64,000 nt of DNA, from assembly GCA_023269825.1 (NCBI GenBank), contig JAGDWI010000003.1, positions 186,001-250,000 on the forward strand, in the 5' to 3' direction. This document shows positions 918-23,074 of the stretch, one piece after another. The stretch is from Desulfurococcaceae archaeon (GTDB taxonomy: Archaea > Thermoproteota > Thermoprotei_A > Sulfolobales > Desulfurococcaceae). The notes under the pieces were generated by a model. It was given only the letters and a program-made list of their open reading frames with translations. It searched no databases and was not told where the DNA came from. Every line of letters starts with the position of its first letter. The stretch's first letter is position 1. The position numbers were made by a program, and so were the translations under genes.

Positions 918-3532
918 ATACCATGAAAACTAGCAATGGGGAATTTTCGCTTCTCCAGTCACGTGATCTCCACGTGCTTCCATATAAGAGGAGCTTCGAA
1001 AAAATCATTAAGTCACCCTGTTATCTCCTCAATGTATATTATGATGGAAAAATTGGAAAAGCAGTAATGGAGTTCCTAAGTGAAGACGGCTCGAGGATCA
1101 TTAAGGTACCTGATCCCTATGGACATAAACCCTATTTTCTAACCGATGAAAACCCAGATGAGTTGAAAAAGAAAATCACAGATGATAGTTTAGAAGGTTT
1201 CGAGGAAGTCGAGAAAATTAACCCGTTAACAATGCAAAGGATAAAATTAACTAAAGTAGTCACGAAAGATCCTCTCGCTGTTAGAAAACTGAGGAGTAAA
1301 GTCGGTAACGCGTGGGAAGCGAAGATCAAGTATCATGCTAACTACATATATGACATGGATCTCATCCCGGGAATGCGCTACGTTATCTCAAATAATGAGT
1401 CAAAAAAACCTATACTCGTTGAACCAGTAATACCCGAGGAAGTCATTAAAACCATTGAAAAAATCTTCGAGAAGGAACCTGATTTAACCAGAGCGCTAGC
1501 AAAGGAGTTCGCGAAACTCTTCGAGGAACCACCGCCTAAGGCTAAGAGAGCATCCATAGATATCGAGGTGTATACTCCATTTAGAGGTAGGGTTCCAAAC
1601 CCGAAGCTCGCAGAGTACCCTGTTATAAGCTTAGCTATCGCAGGGAACGATGGATTCAGGAAAGTGTTTATGTTTTCACGGCCATTCAAGAACTCATTTC
1701 TCTACGCGAGTGAGGAGGTTTACCCTGCGAACGCTGAAATAGAGATCTTTGACTCCGAGAAAGCAATGCTCTTAGAGTTCTATAAAGCTGTTTCCAGGTA
1801 TCCAATCATTTTAACATATAATGGAGATAAATTCGACTTGATATATCTATACACAAGATCACTTAAACTAGGTATACCGAGGTACCTTATTCCCATACAA
1901 ATAAAGGAGGATTTGGCGAGATTTGAGTCGAGCATACACTTAGACCTATACAGGTTTTTCTCAAATAAAGCGATTAAGAACTATGCTTTCGGGGGGAAAT
2001 ACCAGGAGGATAAACTAGATGCTGTATCACATGCTCTACTAGGTGTAACTAAAATAGGGTTCGAGGAAACTGTGAGCGATGTTTCAGCTGGATTACTAGC
2101 TGCTTATAACCTACGCGACGCTGAAATAACTTTAACACTAACTACTTTCAGCGATGAACTCGTGTGGAAACTAATGATCCTCATGGCTCGTATATCGAAA
2201 ACAAGTATCGAGGAACTGTGCAGGAGGCAGATATCTGGGTGGATTCAAAATCTATTCTTCTGGGAGCACAGGAGACTAAACTACCTGGTACCCAATAAAG
2301 AAGATATAGCTAAACACGTTAGAGCCTCGACTAGAGCTGTTATAGATGGTAAAAAGTATGCAGGAGCACTAGTAATTATACCTCCTCAAGGTGTTTTCTT
2401 CAACGTAGTAGTTCTCGATATCGCATCTCTGTATCCAAGCGTTATCAAGAACTATAATTTAAGTTATGAAACAGTTGACGTTGATTGGTGCAGTAGGAAA
2501 TCCGGTGTAGTTGATGAAACAGGGAAAACTATCCACGTTGTATGCACAGATTTCCCTGGTTTAACCGCACAAATAACTGGTATACTGAGAGATTTTAGAG
2601 TAGAAATTTACAAGAAGAGAGGCAAGGATAAAACGTTGCCTAGTGATCTAAGAACTTGGTACGATGTCGTTCAAAGAGCTATTAAAGTATTCATTAATGC
2701 AAGTTACGGAGTCTTTGGCGATGAGCGGTTCTCCCTTTACTCACCAGCAGTCGCCGAGAGCGTTACAGCTCTTGGCAGAAGATCCTTCATGAGCATTGTA
2801 CTGAAAGCAGCTGAAATGGGGGTTAAAACTCTCTACGGGGACACAGACTCCATTTTTGTATGGTCTCCTACACAGAAACAACTAGAACTATTACAGAAGT
2901 GGATACAGCAAAGCCTTGGATTAGATATCGAAGTGGATAAAGAATTCTCATTCGTGGTTTTCACGGGGCTTAGAAAGAATTACCTTGGTAGAACGAAAAA
3001 CGGAGATATCGAAGTAAAAGGACTCGTAGCTAAGAAGAGAAACACGCCTGAGTTCGTTAAACTGCTTTTCACTGATTTACTCGATAAATTGAAAAGCGTT
3101 GAAAGCCCAGAGGACTTCGTGGAGTTCATACATTGGCTTGAAAAAGAAATAAGGAGATACTACCACGGCTTAAAACACAAAGAGATACCTTTAGACATGT
3201 TAGCAATTAAAATGGCCATGACGAAGAATCCATCTGCTTACACTAAGAATAAACCACCCCACGTGAAGGCCGCTATGCAATTACTGAAATACGGTGTAAA
3301 CGTACAAGAAGGAGATGTGATATTAGTGGTGAAAGTTAAAGGAGGAGACGGATATAAGGCTATACAGTTAGCTAAACAATACGAAATCGACCCTGAAAAA
3401 TACATTGACACAATGAAATCCGGGCTAGAGCAACTCTTACTAGCACTAGGTATTAAATGGGAGGATATAACTGGTGGAAGCGAGTTACATAGATTCATGG
3501 ATAATAAATCTCCCCTGAAAGCAAATATATAA
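914..3532 (+). CDS. Family-B DNA polymerase, PolB1 type (replicative)
   Basis: An 872-residue proofreading DNA polymerase. The exonuclease motifs are Exo I with Asp216/Glu218, Exo II with Asn303 and Asp308, and Exo III with Tyr398/Asp402. The polymerase motifs are motif A with Asp502 (DIASLYPS), motif B with Lys591 (KVFINASYG), and motif C YGDTDS with Asp643 and Asp645. All catalytic residues are present. The N-terminal GHKPYFL block and the length match the crenarchaeal PolB1 (Sulfolobus Dpo1) type rather than PolB3, a copy of which lies at 40230. The start is GTG at 914 with a 4-base overlap with NAC; ATG at 923 is an alternative. Confidence 0.94.
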   Translation: MNTMKTSNGEFSLLQSRDLHVLPYKRSFEKIIKSPCYLLNVYYDGKIGKAVMEFLSEDGSRIIKVPDPYGHKPYFLTDENPDELKKKITDDSLEGFEEVEKINPLTMQRIKLTKVVTKDPLAVRKLRSKVGNAWEAKIKYHANYIYDMDLIPGMRYVISNNESKKPILVEPVIPEEVIKTIEKIFEKEPDLTRALAKEFAKLFEEPPPKAKRASIDIEVYTPFRGRVPNPKLAEYPVISLAIAGNDGFRKVFMFSRPFKNSFLYASEEVYPANAEIEIFDSEKAMLLEFYKAVSRYPIILTYNGDKFDLIYLYTRSLKLGIPRYLIPIQIKEDLARFESSIHLDLYRFFSNKAIKNYAFGGKYQEDKLDAVSHALLGVTKIGFEETVSDVSAGLLAAYNLRDAEITLTLTTFSDELVWKLMILMARISKTSIEELCRRQISGWIQNLFFWEHRRLNYLVPNKEDIAKHVRASTRAVIDGKKYAGALVIIPPQGVFFNVVVLDIASLYPSVIKNYNLSYETVDVDWCSRKSGVVDETGKTIHVVCTDFPGLTAQITGILRDFRVEIYKKRGKDKTLPSDLRTWYDVVQRAIKVFINASYGVFGDERFSLYSPAVAESVTALGRRSFMSIVLKAAEMGVKTLYGDTDSIFVWSPTQKQLELLQKWIQQSLGLDIEVDKEFSFVVFTGLRKNYLGRTKNGDIEVKGLVAKKRNTPEFVKLLFTDLLDKLKSVESPEDFVEFIHWLEKEIRRYYHGLKHKEIPLDMLAIKMAMTKNPSAYTKNKPPHVKAAMQLLKYGVNVQEGDVILVVKVKGGDGYKAIQLAKQYEIDPEKYIDTMKSGLEQLLLALGIKWEDITGGSELHRFMDNKSPLKANI

Positions 3533-3644
3533 GTAATAGACTTACTTGCTCTCAGTGCTTCTAGGTCCCTTGTTGGTTCCAAATATAAAATTATAAAAAT
3601 AAAAGAGGCTATTCTAACCATAGTACTAGGTAAGGGTGATCTGC

Positions 3645-3932
3645 TTGCCTAAGAAAAGAGAAAGTCGTGGACGTAGAAAAGGCGATAAAGGCTCTGTGGA
3701 AAGAATCATGTGTGATAATTGCGGCGCATTAGTACCAGCCGATAAAGCTATCTGTGTAACAAGAATGTATAGTCCGGTTCCGCCGGGCTTAGCTGAGGAA
3801 CTCGAGAAGAAGGGCGCGGTTATAATGAAATATCCCGTGGAGAAATGTTACTGTATATCGTGCGCAATACACTTTGGAATAATCAAAGTGAGACCAGAAG
3901 AAGAGAGAAAGCCAAAGCAGCTTCCAATATAA
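3645..3932 (+). CDS. rps26e: Small ribosomal subunit protein eS26
   Basis: About 95 residues with an N-terminal Lys/Arg-rich stretch, a first zinc pair Cys23/Cys26 (CDNC), the family-typical PADKAICVTRMYSPVPPGL block, and a second Cys cluster (CYCISC, Cys68/70/73). eS26 is found in eukaryotes and some archaea, notably crenarchaea. The frame is open from GTG 3636, but TTG at 3645 is preferred because it gives the family N-terminus MPKKRESRG and is preceded by the archaeal Shine-Dalgarno GGTGATC. Confidence 0.93.
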   Translation: MPKKRESRGRRKGDKGSVERIMCDNCGALVPADKAICVTRMYSPVPPGLAEELEKKGAVIMKYPVEKCYCISCAIHFGIIKVRPEEERKPKQLPI

Positions 3933-3994
3933 AATTAGATTTTTAAGTCGAAGTCCACATAGGTGGAATAAAAAGAGTTACATGGTTGATCTAG

Positions 3995-4333
3995 ATGAAA
4001 GCGAGGAAAGTGGTTGTAGTAACGGCTGAACACCACCCCTATCATAAATTATGGTTAAAACTAGCAGAGGAACTTAGCAAAGCTCTAAATGTACCACTGG
4101 AAGTTAAAGTCGAAGATTACGTGTACCTTGTCGACTATGGAGATAAAGACGAGTTCGGTATGAGTTGGTTACCGCAAATACTAGTTGAACTAGAAGATAA
4201 CAGTGTTCACTGGCTTCTATCAAGGCTTCCATTAAATGATGCTTTGCAACCGGATGAAGGGAAAGCTATTAGCGAAATGATTGAAAAACTTAAATCACTC
4301 GGAGTAGAAGTTCCTACATCTCAGTCAACTTAA
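3995..4333 (+). CDS. Conserved crenarchaeal protein of unknown function
   Basis: A 112-residue soluble protein, not assigned to a named family. It starts with an alternating strand (KVVVVTAEHHPYHKLW), followed by a helix and further strands, suggesting a small alpha/beta (thioredoxin- or Rossmann-like) fold. Acidic residues are frequent and there is no signal or membrane segment. It lies between eS26 and a methyltransferase, all on the same strand, with short gaps. The start is ATG at 3995 after GGTTGATCT. Confidence 0.7.
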   Translation: MKARKVVVVTAEHHPYHKLWLKLAEELSKALNVPLEVKVEDYVYLVDYGDKDEFGMSWLPQILVELEDNSVHWLLSRLPLNDALQPDEGKAISEMIEKLKSLGVEVPTSQST

Positions 4334-4388
4334 ATCACCATTAATACCCCCTTATTTTTAAACTCTTATATGATATGGGTTGTAGTGT

Positions 4389-4868
4389 ATGGTGTTTGTT
4401 CCATTTGTACCTACACCTTATCCTGTTGTTCGAGCAATGCTTAAAGCTGCGAATGCTGGCCCTGAAGACGTTGTCTATGATCTCGGTTGCGGTGATGGAA
4501 GAATACTCGTAGTAGCTGTTAAAGAATTCAACGTGAAGAAAGCGGTGGGAATAGAGATAGATCGTGAAAAGTACAAGCTAGCTCTACTTAGAATAAAGGA
4601 TGAAGGAATAGAGGGTAAAGCGGATGTCATTCATGGGGATTTTTTCGAAGTAGATATAAGTGATGCAACAGTTGTAACAATGTTTCTCCTAACATCTGTT
4701 AATGAGATGCTGAGACCTAAGCTTGAGAAAGAACTTAGAGACGGTGCTAGAGTCGTTAGTCACGAGTTTAGGATACCTGGTTGGCGACCAGAGAAGATCA
4801 TTGATGTAAGAGACGATAATGGATTACTTCACACTGTTATCTTGTACGTTAAGGGTAGACACTTGTGA
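4389..4868 (+). CDS. aKMT-like protein lysine methyltransferase (class I SAM-dependent)
   Basis: A 159-residue single-domain Rossmann methyltransferase. The SAM-binding motif DLGCGDG spans residues 31-37. Upstream is the VPFVPTPYPVVRAML segment, typical of the archaeal aKMT / eukaryotic FAM173-METTL group. Characterised aKMT of Sulfolobus methylates lysines of many proteins, including chromatin proteins. Size and motifs fit that family; the substrate here is inferred. The last 45 bases overlap the end of the convergent TrmI gene. Confidence 0.8.
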   Translation: MVFVPFVPTPYPVVRAMLKAANAGPEDVVYDLGCGDGRILVVAVKEFNVKKAVGIEIDREKYKLALLRIKDEGIEGKADVIHGDFFEVDISDATVVTMFLLTSVNEMLRPKLEKELRDGARVVSHEFRIPGWRPEKIIDVRDDNGLLHTVILYVKGRHL

Positions 4869-5633
4869 GATCCTTCTAGCAAATATAATGTACCCTGTAT
4901 GCCCAATCATACGTGTTAAGGGTCTTACTGCGCCTGGTTCAACTTGGTACTCTCTCAGCAGTAACTCATATACACGTACATCTCTGAATAAACCAGTGTT
5001 CTGCAAAGCTATTACTGTTCTCTCGACCTGGTTAATTGTTGGAGTATAGATCAGTATTGTTGAAGACGGTTTCAAAACCTTACTTACGTTCACCAAAGCG
5101 TTCCAAGGATCAGGTATATCTAGGAAGAATGAATCTAAGGGCTCCACGTTCAAATCCATCCTAACATCTTGCTCTTTTAAGATAACTCGATGCAGTAAAC
5201 CAGCTTTTTCAAGGTTTTCTCTGGCGCATTCTAGTGCTTTCTTCGATACATCGAAACCATATAATATGCCGTTGTCACCTATAATGGATGCGATTGCAAC
5301 CGTTAATGCGCCTGACCCAACACCAGCTTCTCCAACTCTACTACCCGGATTTATCCCTGAGAGATAAATCATGAGAGCTGCATCTTTAGGGTAAATAATT
5401 TGCGTAACTCTTCGAATACTCGTAACGTAGTCTTGTCTCAATGGTTTAAGCAGTAAAGCTGTGTAACCTCTGCTTGTTTTTATAAACGAACCGTAGGGTT
5501 GCCCTATGAGTTGATCATGTAGAATATATCCTTTGTCTGTGCCAAGTATTTTGCCTCTCTGAACTTTCACCACAAATTTTCTTTTCTCATCTATGTATAT
5601 TAATACTCCATCTCCTTCACGCACTACCTCCAA
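4824..5633 (-). CDS. trmI: tRNA (adenine-57/58-N1)-methyltransferase TrmI
   Basis: A 269-residue enzyme that makes m1A at positions 57/58 of the tRNA T loop, a thermostabilising modification. The N-terminal beta-barrel (about residues 1-75) precedes a SAM domain with GEAGVGSG at 101-108 and the active-site block LDIPDPWNAL around residues 171-180. The start is TTG at 5633, 9 bases after TAGGAGGT. The gene ends inside the convergent aKMT-like gene (45-base overlap), so the last 15 residues are encoded antisense to the methyltransferase C-terminus. Confidence 0.92.
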   Translation of the reverse strand: MEVVREGDGVLIYIDEKRKFVVKVQRGKILGTDKGYILHDQLIGQPYGSFIKTSRGYTALLLKPLRQDYVTSIRRVTQIIYPKDAALMIYLSGINPGSRVGEAGVGSGALTVAIASIIGDNGILYGFDVSKKALECARENLEKAGLLHRVILKEQDVRMDLNVEPLDSFFLDIPDPWNALVNVSKVLKPSSTILIYTPTINQVERTVIALQNTGLFRDVRVYELLLREYQVEPGAVRPLTRMIGHTGYIIFARRISQVSTLNVQDNSVK

Positions 5634-5945
5634 AGTTAAGAAACCTCCTAAGCCCCGGTATCACTCATCACTAATCAGATATACCAGCTGTCAGCACCAA
5701 TATTTTTAATTTAATTCTAAACTTTATAATTTATTTCTCTCCATGATGCCCCGCTCTGAAGATTTCTGGAGTAAAGTAACTTTATTGAAATACGCGTCTT
5801 CAATTTTTCCCACAAGTCAATACTGTGTTTTCTAGATGGAGATAACTAGGGCTTAGCGAGTTTCTCAGCGAAGAACAGATCTCGGGAATACCTTATTAAG
5901 CAGGTATCATGTACTCTTTAATAGTAAACTACGTGGTTTCAAGTA
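5634..5945. other. Divergent intergenic region between trmI and the ASCH-like gene
   Basis: A 312-base AT-rich gap that must hold two divergent promoters. TATA-like AT stretches lie around 5700-5735 (TrmI side) and at 5911-5922 (TTTAATAG, towards the gene at 5946). A C/D-box-like layout around 5649-5699 on the minus strand was considered and rejected. No open frame in this region could be supported. Confidence 0.5.
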
Positions 5946-6404
5946 ATGACGGTAATAGTGATCCCAATAAAACCGGTTTTTGCATATAAAATTTTTACTC
6001 GTAAAAAGAAATTTGAATTGCGAAAGCTTCCTCATAAGACTTCTCCCGTGAAAACTGGAGATAGAGTGGTCTTGTATGTATCGGGCAGCATTAAGGCTTT
6101 CATGGGAGAATACGTTGTAGGAGAAGTATTGATGGGTACGCCTGAGTACATTATAAGGATTTTATCCATGAGACCTGATAGTGGCGTAGGTGAACAAGAT
6201 TTCGCTTACATTAGAGGAGCTAAGTATGCTTTCGCTATGGAGATATTAAATCCATTAATTTACAAAACCCCCATCGAGATGAAGGAGGTTTTAAGAATTA
6301 TTCCAGATTATTATCCGCCGCAAGGAATACAAAAACTAGATGACTATGACCCAGTGGTTATCCTTTTATTTAATAAAGCGAGAAAAGAGACGTTGAGAGC
6401 TTAA
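5946..6404 (+). CDS. ASCH/PUA-like domain protein (DUF365-type)
   Basis: A 152-residue protein built around a PUA-like barrel. The [22 protein letters not shown]-like opening, with paired basic residues after a strand and then [10 protein letters not shown], is typical of ASCH/DUF365 proteins, which are thought to bind RNA or modified nucleotides. No catalytic residues are certain. The stop overlaps the convergent RHH gene by 4 bases. The function is inferred only from the fold family. Confidence 0.65.
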
Positions 6405-6583
6405 AGGCGTGTTACTTCAACTTCTTTCATCCAAAGCTCTTTCCTTAAAAGTTCTCTAATAGCTACTCTGATGACTTCGCTTCTATTTCTGTATTTGCCT
6501 ATTCTCACAAGTTCATCTATTCCCTCAATATATAGCTCTGGCATTTTAACGGTTACCAATTTAAGCCTCGGTCTATCGAACAC
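6401..6583 (-). CDS. Ribbon-helix-helix (CopG/Arc-type) DNA-binding protein
   Basis: A 60-residue protein with the ribbon [18 protein letters not shown] followed by two helices ([15 protein letters not shown]), the classic RHH layout. Such proteins dimerise, insert a two-stranded ribbon in the major groove, and often autoregulate. The start is GTG at 6583, just after GGTGAT. No partner toxin is adjacent; the convergent neighbour is an ASCH-like protein. A target cannot be named. Confidence 0.8.
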
Positions 6584-6727
6584 TATATCACCACTATAAA
6601 ATGGCCACGGTAATTATCTTAAAAAGACTTGGACATTATTCGTTAATCTGATCTCCTCCTTTAAGGTTAAGCTCGAGTTAAAGGATTTATCCGTGAAAAA
6701 CCTTACCCTAATTAAAGCAGAGTTATC

Positions 6728-6737
6728 ATTTAAAACC
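6728..6737 (+). promoter_or_regulatory. TATA box of the tRNA-Ser gene
   Basis: TTTAAAA (6729-6735) is centred about 29 bases upstream of the first tRNA base, matching archaeal BRE/TATA spacing for a leaderless tRNA transcript. Confidence 0.5.
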
Positions 6738-6761
6738 CTGTTCAAAATAATAAATAAATGA

Positions 6762-6845
6762 GCCGGGGTCGCCTAGCCTGGTAGGGCGCCGGCCTGCTAA
6801 GCCGGTGGGGGAAACCCCGCGCGGGTTCAAATCCCGCCCCCGGCG
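6762..6845 (+). tRNA. tRNA-Ser(GCT)
   Basis: A class II tRNA of 84 nt with long variable arm. The acceptor stem GCCGGGG (6762-6768) pairs perfectly with CCCCGGC (6838-6844), with discriminator G6845. The anticodon stem is CCGGC/GCCGG around loop CTGCTAA, anticodon GCT at 6796-6798. The T arm is GCGGG-TTCAAAT-CCCGC. CCA is not encoded. The integrase relic begins 88 bases downstream, which makes this tRNA the probable integration target. Confidence 0.95.
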
Positions 6846-6892
6846 CTCCTCCTTTAAATACCCAGATAAATTTTACTGGGCTACCCCAGGTC

Positions 6893-6915
6893 CACGCCTC
6901 CGCGGTGGGGGCGTG
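6893..6915 (+). repeat. Inverted repeat before the integrase relic
   Basis: CACGCC (6893-6898) pairs with GGCGTG (6910-6915); the stem can extend by a T-G wobble and two C-G pairs. It sits between tRNA-Ser and the integrase start, where an operator or arm-type recombinase site could lie. The role is inferred. Confidence 0.35.
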
Positions 6916-6932
6916 AACTACTAGGTGAAATC

Positions 6933-7745
6933 ATGCTTGCTAATCACTGGTACGATAGGGTCAATACTAGTGCTCTCGGGGATGATGCGGGGAGGCTTAT
7001 CCTCAAGAGGGTTAAGCGTAAACTCGGGCTCACCAAGGCCCTTGAAGCCCTAGCCATCTCCAAGGGTGCGATGTATAACTACCTACATGGCGTTAGGAGG
7101 GCTCCCGATGAAGTGGTCTACAGGGCTCTTCAACACCTAGAGGAGAGAGAGTTTAACGAAATAGTCAAGGGGATTGATAGACTTCGGGCCGTTGGGATCA
7201 TCCGTGAGGACGGGTCTATCGACTACTCTCTAATACCACAGGCCATAGCGCTTGCTACTTGAGACGAGTACTTGAAGCAAGCACTACTAAGGTTCACAGT
7301 GGAGAACTTCGGGGAGGATCTCAGGAAGATGCTTTGCTCGAGCCTAGCACACGTGGTGTTCAAGTGGGAGCCGGGCTTCGAGGAGTTACTCAGGGAGAGG
7401 AAGATGTGCCGGAGAGTGGCGAGTCCCGGTACAATGTCCTACTACCGCAACCTGTTTAAGCAGTACCTCGAGGGTAAGTCTCTAAGCGAGGAGATAGTAG
7501 ACTACGTTATCAACCACGAGAACAAGTGGCTTAGAAACGTTTTCAGACACTACGTTCAATACCTATACTACCTCAGGAGAATACCCCGGAGACATATGGT
7601 TGGTTAATGGAGGTAGTGCCCTCACGGAGCTATAGACTAGACGTGAGGCCATACCCGATAAACCCCGAGGACGTGAAGAGGACTCTAGCCTATCTAAGAG
7701 AGCGGCACGAGCTATACTACCTAGTCTAGAGGCTGATGCTAGAGG
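6933..7745 (+). pseudogene. Crenarchaeal tyrosine-recombinase (integrase) relic
   Basis: The N-terminal and core-binding part of an integrase found in many crenarchaeal genomes: an HTH-like start (LTKALEALAISKGAMYNYLHG), then helical core-binding segments. It is broken three ways. TGA at 7260-7262 lies in frame (probably former CGA, IALAT-x-DEYLKQ). A one-base deletion near 7583-7587 shifts the frame, after which PETYGWLMEVVPSRSYRLDV continues in the next frame. TAG at 7727-7729 follows YYLV. The coding similarity ends abruptly at about 7745, against the stop of the livF gene, so the whole catalytic domain with Arg/His/Arg/Tyr is missing. It is GC-rich compared with its flanks. The family assignment rests on recognition of the sequence pattern. 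Confidence 0.75.
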
Positions 7746-7746
7746 A

Positions 7747-8466
7747 TCAGTATGCGGCACGCTCGCCCATGAAGAACATCTTCTCTATTTTTGCTACTGA
7801 AAACTCCTCGCTGGTATAAGACCCTGTTATCTCGCCTCCGACTAATACGTAGGCTTTATCAGCTACTTCAAGGGTTTTCTTAACGTTCTGCTCTGCTATT
7901 AGTATCGTGATCTCGGTTGATTTACTGATTTCCTTAATTCTCTTAATTACCTCTGAGGCGAGTCTAGGTGCAAGCCCTGCTGTTGGTTCATCTAGTAAGA
8001 GTAATGATGGTTTAGCTAAGAGAGCTCTGGCTATCGCTAACATTTGCCTCTCGCCGCCACTCAGAGTCTTTGCCTTCTGTCTACGCCTTTTTGCTAGCTC
8101 AGGGAATAGAGTTAAGACCTCCCCTACATCTGAGGCTACATTTGGATCGCCTCTTCTGAGATACGCTCCCAGGGCTAGATTCTCATCGACGGTTAAATTA
8201 GGGAAAATATTGTCAATCTGAGGAACAATTCCTATTCCCAGTTTAGCTATTTCATACGGCTTCATCTCATTGAGAACAATACCGTTAAATCTTATAGTAC
8301 CATTGAAAATAGTCGTAAGATTCAACACTGTATTCAATAAAGTCGACTTACCTGCACCATTGGGACCAAGTACTGCGACGATCTCGCCCTTTAACACATC
8401 CATATTTATTCCTCGTATAACGGGTATTTTTCCATAACCAGCCGTTAGGTCGCGGATCTCTAGCAA
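7747..8466 (-). CDS. livF: ABC transporter ATP-binding protein, LivF type
   Basis: A 239-residue nucleotide-binding subunit with Walker A LGPNGAGKST, signature LSGGERQML, Walker B LLLLDEPTAGL and the H-loop region replaced by AEQN, as is usual in LivF. With LivG it would power import through LivH/LivM. It is the last gene of the ferredoxin/AOR/liv operon, 2 bases after livG, and its stop abuts the truncated integrase. Confidence 0.9.
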   Translation of the reverse strand: MLEIRDLTAGYGKIPVIRGINMDVLKGEIVAVLGPNGAGKSTLLNTVLNLTTIFNGTIRFNGIVLNEMKPYEIAKLGIGIVPQIDNIFPNLTVDENLALGAYLRRGDPNVASDVGEVLTLFPELAKRRRQKAKTLSGGERQMLAIARALLAKPSLLLLDEPTAGLAPRLASEVIKRIKEISKSTEITILIAEQNVKKTLEVADKAYVLVGGEITGSYTSEEFSVAKIEKMFFMGERAAY

Positions 8467-18778: not shown

Positions 18779-19051
18779 ATGGATATATTTGTTTTAAACG
18801 TGAATGCTTCTGATCGCTATGAACTATTATATTCCCTCGCTAAGAAACTGCATGAACTAGGCTATGTTAAAGATACTTATCTCAAAGCATTAATAAATAG
18901 GGAAGAAAACTACCCTACGGGACTAGTAGTTAATGAGAGATTCCACGTAGCTATTCCACATGCGGACGTTGAACACGTTGAAAAAGAAGCATTGGTAGTT
19001 GTTAAAACACACCGTAGAATAACCTTTAGGAAAATGGATAGGGTGGCCTAG
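18779..19051 (+). pseudogene. PTS EIIA, galactitol/fructose type, truncated by an internal deletion
   Basis: About 90 residues of an EIIA phosphocarrier (family length about 150). The acceptor His61 lies in VAIPHADVEHV, and YPTGLVVNERFHVAIPH matches GatA-type proteins. Coding similarity stops at ITFRKMD, where EIIA normally continues for 60 more residues; the frame then ends within 4 codons (TAG at 19049). The next recognisable codons belong to the middle of GatC in another frame. ATG at 18779 is preferred, with GGTG 6 bases upstream; GTG at 18770 also opens the frame. Confidence 0.8.
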
Positions 19052-20159
19052 TGCTGCAGCCATCGCTTTCGGATCCATAGTTGGAATAAGCATGATACCA
19101 ATAGTGCTAGTTGTTAACCTGGTTTTACTAGCTCTCAAAGTAACTCGCACCGTTAACATCGATGTCTGGAACTACTGGCACATGGCATTCGTTGCTAGCC
19201 TTGTCTACATATATACAGGTGATTACTTACTCGGCGTGTTAGCAGGTATAACTATGACTGTTGCACTGCTAGTCATAGCTGATGAAACAGGCCCAATGAT
19301 ACAGGAAATGCTTGGGAGCCCCGCGATATCGCTGCCACACGGTTTCTCCGCTCCCTACGCTATACTAGCATACCCATTCGCGAAGTTATTCGATAAAATA
19401 CCATTCTTAGCTAAGGTGAAAGCTGACCCTGAGACCATTAGAGCTAAACTAGGATTACTCGGTGAAACACCTGTACTAGGAGCAATATTGGGCTTCCTAC
19501 TATCCGTTATTGCCAGACAAGACTACAAAGTAGTAGCTGCTACTACAATAGGATTAGCTGCTGTAATGCTTCTACTGCCTAGGATGGTTAAAATACTTAT
19601 GGAGGGCCTTGTCCCAATAGCTGACTCTGTGAGAGACTACTTCGTTAAGAGATATGCAGGTAAGAGAGAAATATACATAGGGTTAGATTCAGCTATTGCA
19701 ACAGGGCACCCAGCAGTTATAGCTACCGCGTTGATCCTAATTCCAATATTCATAGTTGAAATGCTTGTACCGTGGAATAGAATACTATTACTAGCCGATC
19801 TCCCTGTAATAGTCTTCATGATGTGTATGGCTGTACCAGTGTTCAAGTATGATATAGTTAAAAGCGTTATATTCGGCGCCATCATAAACCTACTTGGCTT
19901 ATGGATGGGTACGAACATAATGCACATTTACACTGAGACCGCGAAATACGTTGGATTCCCAATACCATCCGGCTACGTTTACGTATCCAGTATTTGTGAT
20001 GGAATGAACCCGTTCACCTGGCTATTGGTGAGAGTCAACGATCTAGGATACATAGGCGGTATAGCGGTAATGTTGGCAATTATAGTAGTATGCAGCGTAA
20101 TAGGCTACATGAGAGAGAAGAAGCGTGGAGCAACATTAGCTCCTGCAACCACGGCTTAA
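19035..20159 (+). pseudogene. PTS EIIC, galactitol (GatC) type, missing its N-terminal part
   Basis: A polytopic membrane permease related to GatC. The coding frame is recognisable from TGG at 19035 (WIGWPSAAAIAFGS, equal to the GWPG region about residue 90 of E. coli GatC) through VNIDVWNYWHM, SLPHGFSAPYAILA, and IGLDSAIATGHPAVIATAL to the C-terminus. About 85-90 N-terminal residues are gone. The first ATG in frame is at 19092, giving 355 residues versus about 450 in the family. Together with the EIIA end, this shows one deletion removing the EIIA tail, all of EIIB and the EIIC head. A shortened protein may still be made, but transport is doubtful. Confidence 0.78.
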
Positions 20160-20247: not shown

Positions 20248-21161
20248 ATGGTTGAGAAACCGGTTGTCCTAGGAGGATTAAATGGAGAACACTTAGCAAT
20301 AGAATTAGCTGATCTAGGGGCTTTGAACTCGGATACGTTGAAGTAAAGAAATTCCCCGATGGAGAAACATATGTCAGGGTCTTAACTGATGTAACAGATA
20401 GAAAAGTGGTTTACATTAATAGTTTACAAAGAAACGTTAATGATTCATTAGTTGAAACAATTCTAACGCTTGATGCTCTCAGGGATCTAGGGGCCAGGGA
20501 GATCATCGCTGTAGTACCGTACATGAGTTATGCAAGGCAAGACGCGAGGTTTAACCCTGGTGAAGCCGTGAGTATACAGACAATTGCTAAAGTATTCAGC
20601 TTGCTGAGAATAGATTACTTGATTACAGTAGACATGCATTTACACAGAATAAGCGATCCGAATAAATTATTCAACACTAGGTTTTATAATATAACAGGCG
20701 TAAGAGAGCTCGCTAAATACTTCAAAACAAAGCATGAAATAAGAAGAAACGAAACAATTATAATAGGTCCAGATGAAGAAGCTGAGCAATGGGCTAAAAT
20801 AATGAGCAGTGAGCTCGGAGGACTAGAGTACTCAATACTCGAGAAAAAGAGAATTTCAGCGGAAAAAGTCTTAATCGATACACGTGGTGTTAACGTGAAG
20901 GATAAAAAAGTAATCATAGTGGATGATATAATAAGCACTGGTGGCACAATAGTGGAAGCTGTGAAAGGCTTAAGGGAGCTAGGAGCTGAAGATATCATGG
21001 TTGGAACAGTGCACCCATTACTGATTGGAGACGCGTATAATAAACTACTGCGTTTAAAGCTAAAAGACCTAGTGGGAACCAACACTATTCTGAGTCCTAT
21101 AAGCAAAGTAAGTGTTGCACCCGCTGTTCTTGAAGCATTAGCATCCATTAAAGCAATTTAG
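20248..21161 (+). pseudogene. prs: Ribose-phosphate pyrophosphokinase (PRPP synthase) with a frameshift
   Basis: PRPP synthase makes PRPP from ribose 5-phosphate and ATP. The gene starts at ATG 20248 (MVEKPVVLGGLNGEHLAIEL) and breaks at the CTAGGGGC run near 20315-20321: a one-base loss shifts the frame, after which FELGYVEVKKFPDGETYVRV continues without interruption. Downstream are the catalytic and PRPP-binding segments (YMSYARQDARF; TVDMHLHRI; VDDIISTGGT). Only one discontinuity is seen in about 304 codons and the rest is well preserved, so a sequencing error or a very recent mutation is likely. Restarting at GTG 20406 would lose the N-terminal strand. Confidence 0.82.
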
Positions 21162-21355: not shown

Positions 21356-23074
21356 TTGAAAACGTACCATGGATTACCTGCATCACCAGGCATAACAATA
21401 GCGAGAGCTAGGAAGTACGCCCGCGTGAATCTATTAAACCTAGTGCCCGAGGACTGTGCTTCAATAGATGTATCCGTTGAAGCATCTAGAATAAATCATG
21501 CTTTAATGGAGGCTAAGAGACGGTTAGAAAACATGAGAAGCATCTACGCTGAGAAAGAGCTAGTGGATGCTCTAGGGTACATTGTTGAAAGCATTGCTCA
21601 AGAAGCATTAGAATTAGTGAATAGTGAGAGAATATGCAGTAGTCTCGCAGTTAAAAGAATCTACGAGAAATACGCTGAGATGCTTAGATCTACTGGTAGT
21701 CAGTTATTCGCTTTTAGAGAAGTAGATTTAAGGGTTGCAGCTGAATTACTGCTGGGAAGTATTCTAGGTGAAAGCGGCCGCCAGTTACCAATGGAACTAG
21801 CCGATAAAGTGATTATTAGCGAAGAGCTCGGGATAACGGAGTTCTTCGAGTTACTTAAACTAAACATAAAGGGATTAGTGACGAGGAGCGGTGGAGTAAC
21901 ATCACATGTCGCTATTGTTGCCAGGTGTAATGGTATTCCATACGTTATCGTTCCACAGTTGAATATCAGTGATTTCGCGGACGACTCAAGAGTTATCATT
22001 GATGCTCTAAATGGACTGGTAATCCTTGAACCTGATGATTCAACGTTGAAAACATATGAAGTCAAAGCTGAAAACTACTGGAAAGCACTTGAACAAATAG
22101 CTAAATATGCATACGAAAAAGCTGTAACTACAGATGAGTACAGTGTAAAAGTGCTATGTAATGTGGGTAACTTAGAGGAGGCTAGACTAGCCTCCACTCT
22201 AGGATGCGACGGCGTTGGGCTTTTCAGAATAGAGTTCCTCTACATGCGGGATAAACCACCCACTGTATCGGAACTCCGCGATGTATTCGAGAAAACTGCT
22301 TCCTTCTTCGAAAACAAACCCGTGGTTATACGTGCACCAGATATTGGGGGAGATAAACCGGTTCCCTACATATCAATGAAGGAGAATAACCCGTTTATGG
22401 GTTTACGTGGAATTCGCCTCCTATTAGAGTATAAGGAGGATTTATTTATACCATTCATTGAAGCCTTCCTCGAAGCTTTCAAAAGTCACAATAACTTGAA
22501 GTTGCTTTTACCCATGGTTAGTAGAGTATCCGAGGTACTTGAAACAGTTAAGTTAATTGAGGAAACAGCTAAGAAAATGAATATTGATGACTCAAACCTC
22601 GAGCTAGGAGTAATGGTTGAAGTTCCTTCAACAGCTATACTCATCGACAAATTCGCTGAGACAGGTAAAATACGCTTCGTAAGCTACGGAACAAATGATT
22701 TAACGCAATACGTACTAGCCGTTGATAGAACAAACCCTAAAGTAGGAGTAATATATGATGATTTAGACCCATCCGTTCTAAGACTACTAAGTTTCTCGAT
22801 GAGTAAAGCCGCTGAAAACAATCTCGAAGTAGAGGTCTGCGGAGAACTTGCCAGCAGGCAACTAGCAATACCAATACTATTATCACTGGGAGTGAAAGGG
22901 CTCAGCGTTAATTACAGTGTAGTAGGAGTAGTGAAATATACTGTGCGAGGTACAAGTTTAGAAGAAGTTAAAAAACAAGTACCTCCACAAGTACTAAACT
23001 CTAGTAATAGCCAAGAAGTAAGAGAAGCTCTGAAACAGTATTTATCGTTAAAGGGGTTAGCTCTACTCGGATAG
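21356..23074 (+). CDS. ptsI: PTS Enzyme I (phosphoenolpyruvate-protein phosphotransferase)
   Basis: A 572-residue protein, full family length. It would take phosphate from PEP onto a His and pass it to HPr. The N-terminal HPr-binding helical domain spans about residues 30-145; the phospho-His domain has SGGVTSHVAIVAR with His184; the C-terminal PEP-utilising barrel has APDIGGDKP, MVEVPSTAILI, SYGTNDLTQYVLAVDR and CGELAS with the catalytic Cys. All key residues are present. TTG at 21356 is preceded by AGAGGGAG. No HPr gene is found in the window, and the nearby EIIA/EIIC are broken, so the protein may be an orphan. PTS is rare in Archaea and known among crenarchaea from Thermofilum. Confidence 0.93.
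   Translation: MKTYHGLPASPGITIARARKYARVNLLNLVPEDCASIDVSVEASRINHALMEAKRRLENMRSIYAEKELVDALGYIVESIAQEALELVNSERICSSLAVKRIYEKYAEMLRSTGSQLFAFREVDLRVAAELLLGSILGESGRQLPMELADKVIISEELGITEFFELLKLNIKGLVTRSGGVTSHVAIVARCNGIPYVIVPQLNISDFADDSRVIIDALNGLVILEPDDSTLKTYEVKAENYWKALEQIAKYAYEKAVTTDEYSVKVLCNVGNLEEARLASTLGCDGVGLFRIEFLYMRDKPPTVSELRDVFEKTASFFENKPVVIRAPDIGGDKPVPYISMKENNPFMGLRGIRLLLEYKEDLFIPFIEAFLEAFKSHNNLKLLLPMVSRVSEVLETVKLIEETAKKMNIDDSNLELGVMVEVPSTAILIDKFAETGKIRFVSYGTNDLTQYVLAVDRTNPKVGVIYDDLDPSVLRLLSFSMSKAAENNLEVEVCGELASRQLAIPILLSLGVKGLSVNYSVVGVVKYTVRGTSLEEVKKQVPPQVLNSSNSQEVREALKQYLSLKGLALLG

Follow-up and report, generated by a model that had tools for sequence, protein, structure and literature searches.

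Sugar phosphotransferase systems (PTS) are rare in crenarchaea. One of the closest described counterparts of the locus reported here is the GatABC galactitol-type PTS (PF00359, PF02302 and PF03611/TIGR00827). Permease-less PTS have been described in Brucella melitensis (PMC2937029) and in Haloquadratum walsbyi, the latter with EI and HPr only (PMC3189178); the present case is similar in that it has EI, HPr and EIIA proteins but no intact permease. A third point of comparison is provided by the archaeal 2-oxoacid dehydrogenase complexes of the PDH/acetoin-dehydrogenase type; a 2014 survey found that E2 was lost in most anaerobic Desulfurococcales while LplA was kept (PMC3904984). A literature search, with most subscription journals outside its scope, found no paper naming both Desulfurococcaceae and the phosphotransferase system.

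We analyzed a 64,000-nucleotide stretch of the genome of a Desulfurococcaceae archaeon, termed the window (positions 186,001 to 250,000 of contig JAGDWI010000003.1). Our main reading, to which we assign a probability of roughly 70%, is that one recent illegitimate deletion of ∼4.84 kb occurred in a sugar-PTS island and that the phosphorelay most likely still feeds a PTS-type dihydroxyacetone kinase, DhaKLM.

Results

Two incomplete PTS genes on the plus strand meet at a single join. The upstream gene is a truncated EIIA (PTS_EIIA_2; 18779 to 19051), assigned from its PF00359 coverage, its alignment to the intact locus of a relative (L028, below) and an active-site His motif. This reading frame matched PF00359 with 66.7 bits (E = 2.8e-18) over only positions 8 to 88 of the 144-position profile, and corresponds to the first 87 of ∼151 residues; the active-site His is retained (VAIPHAD), but a complete EIIA is absent from the window. 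After the join, the frame reads RVA from EIIC sequence (MDRVA) and then a stop codon at 19049 to 19051. The downstream gene is a 5′-truncated GatC-type EIIC (19040 to 20159) with native residues from ∼88 onward and 91% identity to L028 and L029. It matched positions 70 to 393 of the 394-position PF03611 profile (E = 8.2e-52; match beginning at C3:205038, window position 19038), whereas the L028 protein covers positions 2 to 393; thus, the EIIC-GAT membrane domain is incomplete, with positions 1 to 69 missing. The first two hydrophobic (membrane) segments are absent, and the first start codon in the frame, an ATG at 19092, corresponds to a Met inside the native protein. Similarity to EIIA stops at 19039 and similarity to EIIC begins at 19040 to 19041 in a different frame. 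The preliminary description of this DNA, a crenarchaeal GatABC-type PTS with EIIA fused to the middle of EIIC in another frame, is therefore borne out by the matches of both fragments to PTS families (PF00359 and PF03611), by the Pfam coverage and by the L028 alignment, its coordinates and frames being right. Continued production and use of the truncated proteins, for example of EIIA as a phospho-sensor or of the EIIC core as a facilitator, would be consistent with the two open frames and the retained His but is highly improbable for a single-domain EIIA lacking 64 of 151 residues and an EIIC lacking two membrane segments and its native start codon.

When genome contigs were compared with the EIIC fragment, three archaeal loci were detected at 89 to 91% amino acid identity, while the remaining EIIC loci among the matches listed were bacterial and had ≤48% identity. 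Two of the archaeal loci are intact, namely L028 (JAUQPA010000008.1, MAG DRTY-1, genome G162) and L029 (JAJHQS010000029.1, MAG Bin S21, genome G049); the third, L030 (JANXDZ010000001.1, MAG SKYB35, genome G145), is an island without eiiA. The gene order in these relatives is eiiA on the plus strand, followed by genes for ribulose-phosphate 3-epimerase, EIIB, a lipoyl protein, E1-beta, E1-alpha and an E2 core, all on the minus strand, and then eiiC on the plus strand. The opposite-strand block, from epimerase to E2 core, is intact in L028 (1365 to 5590), L029 (1432 to 5621) and L030 (1331 to 5586). EIIA is complete in L028, and EIIB is present in all three loci with the motif CGTAIATAT. This arrangement differs from that of bacterial loci L031, L032 and L035, in which eiiA, eiiB and eiiC are adjacent, as the archaeal eiiB lies on the opposite strand within the six-gene block. 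The EIIA, EIIB and EIIC proteins of the relatives all matched galactitol-type models, and their EIIC aligned with the GatC structure 9u82 over residues 15 to 453, but all three scored below the NCBIfam cut-offs, so that galactitol is not implied as the substrate.

Alignment of the DNA placed window positions 18779 to 19039 on L028 positions 847 to 1107 (76% identity) and window positions 19041 to 21148 on L028 positions 5950 to 8099 (77.5%), leaving L028 positions 1108 to 5949 (4,842 bp) with no counterpart in the window. The prs, ptsI and adk genes downstream of eiiC are common to both, indicating that L028 is the true counterpart. The flanks are therefore collinear and interrupted by one gap relative to an intact congener, as expected for a single deletion, which relative to L028 removed ∼4.84 kb, comprising 64 EIIA residues, six whole genes and 87 EIIC residues. 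L028 nearly qualifies as a close relative in which the block is entire and the flanks are the same, but the species are well separated. Provided that the gap does not stem from an assembly fault, these results uphold the earlier proposal of one internal deletion that took the end of EIIA, the whole of EIIB and ∼90 EIIC residues. The size of the loss had been underestimated, as the ∼250 codons originally proposed compare with an actual ∼4.7 to 4.8 kb, about six times more. The intact locus for which a search in relatives had been suggested does exist, with prs-ptsI-adk downstream, but not in the gatA-gatB-gatC order that had been taken as ancestral; an ancestor of that kind with a 250-codon loss is ruled out by L028 and L029 and the six opposite-strand genes between their eiiA and eiiC.

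The deletion junction (GGAT/AGGGT; 19036 to 19044, no strand assigned), which reads ATGGAT/AGGGTGG in slightly wider context, was compared with L029 as a stand-in for the exact ancestral bases of the window strain; on this comparison, we infer a microhomology of ∼1 bp at the join. Within 60 bp of the breakpoints there was no in-register repeat, and the longest shared words were of 7 to 8 bases and out of register, which rules out repeat-mediated recombination. The lack of such a repeat and the ∼1 shared base fit illegitimate joining. A series of successive losses, with, for example, the opposite-strand block decaying or being excised first and eiiA and eiiC being trimmed later, would be in keeping with the recurrence of PTS loss in this genus and with the variation of the island among relatives, exemplified by L030. 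This sequence of events is, however, improbable, given the lack of intermediate debris at the junction and the lack of time for EIIC to have decayed.

The EIIC remnant was compared with its three intact relatives and gave dN/dS values of 0.03 to 0.05, with silent sites near saturation. For codons at which the other three sequences agree, changes found only in the window consisted of 19 silent changes and 1 replacement, whereas under neutrality ∼4.5 replacements would be expected for each silent change; from these counts, the unconstrained share of the branch leading to the window is at most ∼6%. The remnant still shows purifying selection, and hence, either the deletion is very young, or only part of the population carries it, or it is an artifact of assembly. 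The neighboring prs gene (ribose-phosphate diphosphokinase; plus strand, 20249 to 21161), which anchors the L028 comparison, lacks one base near 20325 in comparison with L028, ∼1.3 kb downstream of the scar, and its frame is thereby broken. Either an assembly error or the onset of decay would be compatible with this frameshift. Another prs copy is present at G000 C2:340883-341209.

Both of these observations count against the deletion being real, as the frameshift indicates a stretch that either contains assembly errors or is decaying and as an EIIC without any decay is also expected from an assembly artifact or from an allele carried by part of a population. The one serious rival to our reading is, therefore, that the island is intact in the genome and that the assembler either joined across it or picked a deletion allele of part of the population. 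The assembly is 96.6% complete and consists of 3 contigs, which also leaves room for this explanation. Against it, the missing genes were found nowhere else in the assembly, though an assembled alternative allele would often show them, there is no breakpoint repeat to mislead the assembler, and a second PTS of this genome lacks its permease too. We consider a fault or minority allele a real but distinctly less probable explanation than a recent deletion.

The genome-wide absences rest on profile searches of the whole assembly, in which EIIB (PF02302), E1_dh and Ribul_P_3_epim had no match; hence, there is no EIIB with a phosphorylatable Cys in this genome, and relocation of the missing genes for EIIB, E1 and epimerase is ruled out. 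The general phosphorelay proteins are present, with scores above curated cut-offs and with active-site His residues. Enzyme I is encoded by an intact ptsI on the plus strand at 21356 to 23074 (TIGR01417, 384.8 bits versus a cut-off of 341.7; active-site motif GGVTSHVAIVAR), and HPr is encoded at C3:64253-64489 (TIGR01003, 85.0 versus 47.9; GLHARPA). The HPr gene adjoins genes for DhaL, DhaM and DhaK, which lie side by side (L150 1719-4520; G000 C3:61718-64519) and make up the gene set of a crenarchaeal dihydroxyacetone kinase of the PTS type. DhaL (TIGR02365) and DhaM (TIGR02364) scored above their cut-offs, and DhaM has an EIIA-Man domain, while DhaK was slightly below its cut-off (TIGR02363, 398.9 versus 406.25; Dak1, 390.9 bits). 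The predicted chain from PEP through EI, HPr and DhaM to DhaL-DhaK is complete on paper. With DhaKLM as a candidate user, it is less likely that EI and HPr are idle leftovers, and the gene content suggests that a permease-less PTS probably remains in operation and supplies dihydroxyacetone kinase.

The second PTS (L026 7020-10694; G000 C2:445019-448693) has an intact EIIA together with NagA and two SIS proteins, is without EIIB and EIIC, and lies alongside an ABC sugar transporter cluster. The matching EIIB and EIIC of this NagA-linked PTS are present in a congener, G124. The G124 EIIC (L017 5565-6854) contains an in-frame TAA and is either decaying or misread. Two other congeners, G095 and G118 (98 to 99% complete), yielded no EI, HPr, EIIB or EIIC in profile searches. 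The missing EIIB and EIIC of the second PTS, the stop codon in G124 and the lack of these components in G095 and G118 indicate that PTS loss or absence is common in this genus. In a family sample of 40 genomes, HPr was detected in 11, EI in 9 and EIIB in 7. Older papers (PMC2678158 and PMC3189178) are in accord with the view that Thermofilum is the main known source of crenarchaeal PTS, but in light of these counts that view is overstated.

The block retained by the relatives encodes E1-alpha with a ThDP motif (ending in EDN instead of ENN in L029), E1-beta, an E2 catalytic core with a DHRxADG motif and, as a separate protein of 80 to 83 residues, a lipoyl protein with its lysine motif, such that the components of a 2-oxoacid dehydrogenase are all present apart from E3 dihydrolipoyl dehydrogenase, for which no gene was found within the block. 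It resembles archaeal 2-oxoacid dehydrogenase complexes in these four components and differs from them in having the lipoyl domain as its own protein, in lacking E3 and in being located inside a PTS locus. A gene for lipoate-protein ligase (LplA; profile match) adjoins the island in L029 and is apparently also nearby in L030. This E1 is confined to the three island carriers in the family sample, with two other genomes having a more distant E1. Several bacterial GatC loci have an epimerase and transketolase-like subunits nearby, the transketolase reading being based on 22 to 26% matches to E1-beta. In the archaeal island, the epimerase is likewise present, but E1-alpha/beta, the lone lipoyl protein and E2 occur where the bacterial loci have these subunits. 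One speculative explanation, which we regard as doubtful, is that the lost block was a PTS-coupled, lipoyl-dependent ThDP complex with the role that a putative split transketolase may have beside homologous bacterial PTS genes, and that its reaction might be the oxidative cleavage of a pentulose phosphate, yielding an acyl-CoA. In a Tepidanaerobacteraceae MAG (L034 660-8206), gatB and gatC are located ∼3 kb from E1-beta, E2 and E3 genes of the 2-oxoacid/acetoin-dehydrogenase type; an apparent transposase lies between them, and the proximity may be due to chance.

Discussion

The deletion scar is well defined and exceeds the preliminary description in both size and information, but it is of an ordinary kind. 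In the mechanism that we favor, a single illegitimate deletion would have taken everything between the EIIA and EIIC breakpoints. As EIIB is gone and the first two membrane segments of EIIC are missing, the sugar of this island would no longer be taken up and both remnants would be pseudogenes. Transfer of phosphate from PEP to DhaM by EI and HPr most likely continues, with DhaK-DhaL predicted to phosphorylate dihydroxyacetone. The cell would thereby have exchanged a sugar-importing PTS for a permease-less one, which would explain why ptsI, beside the scar, is undecayed; judging from the genes present, use by DhaKLM may be what keeps ptsI and HPr alive. The preliminary description had viewed the locus as capturing both the acquisition and the loss of a PTS; the permease parts were indeed lost, but the PTS as a whole was kept, as EI, HPr and DhaM remain. 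Unlike in Brucella melitensis and Haloquadratum walsbyi, the relay here probably ends in a dihydroxyacetone kinase of the PTS type, and a fresh permease scar is visible.

What this locus illustrates cleanly is recent gene loss, and no novel type of gene is involved. More unusual is the island that the relatives retain, in which a lipoyl/ThDP dehydrogenase-like complex is encoded within a PTS locus, in a group whose anaerobic members are for the most part without such complexes. If the ThDP-complex reading is true, the organism analyzed here would be a natural knockout of that pathway. Complete island, truncated island and absence of any PTS are all represented within this genus, and if the deletion is real, the permease branch was removed by one recent event, with the phosphorelay staying with dihydroxyacetone kinase.
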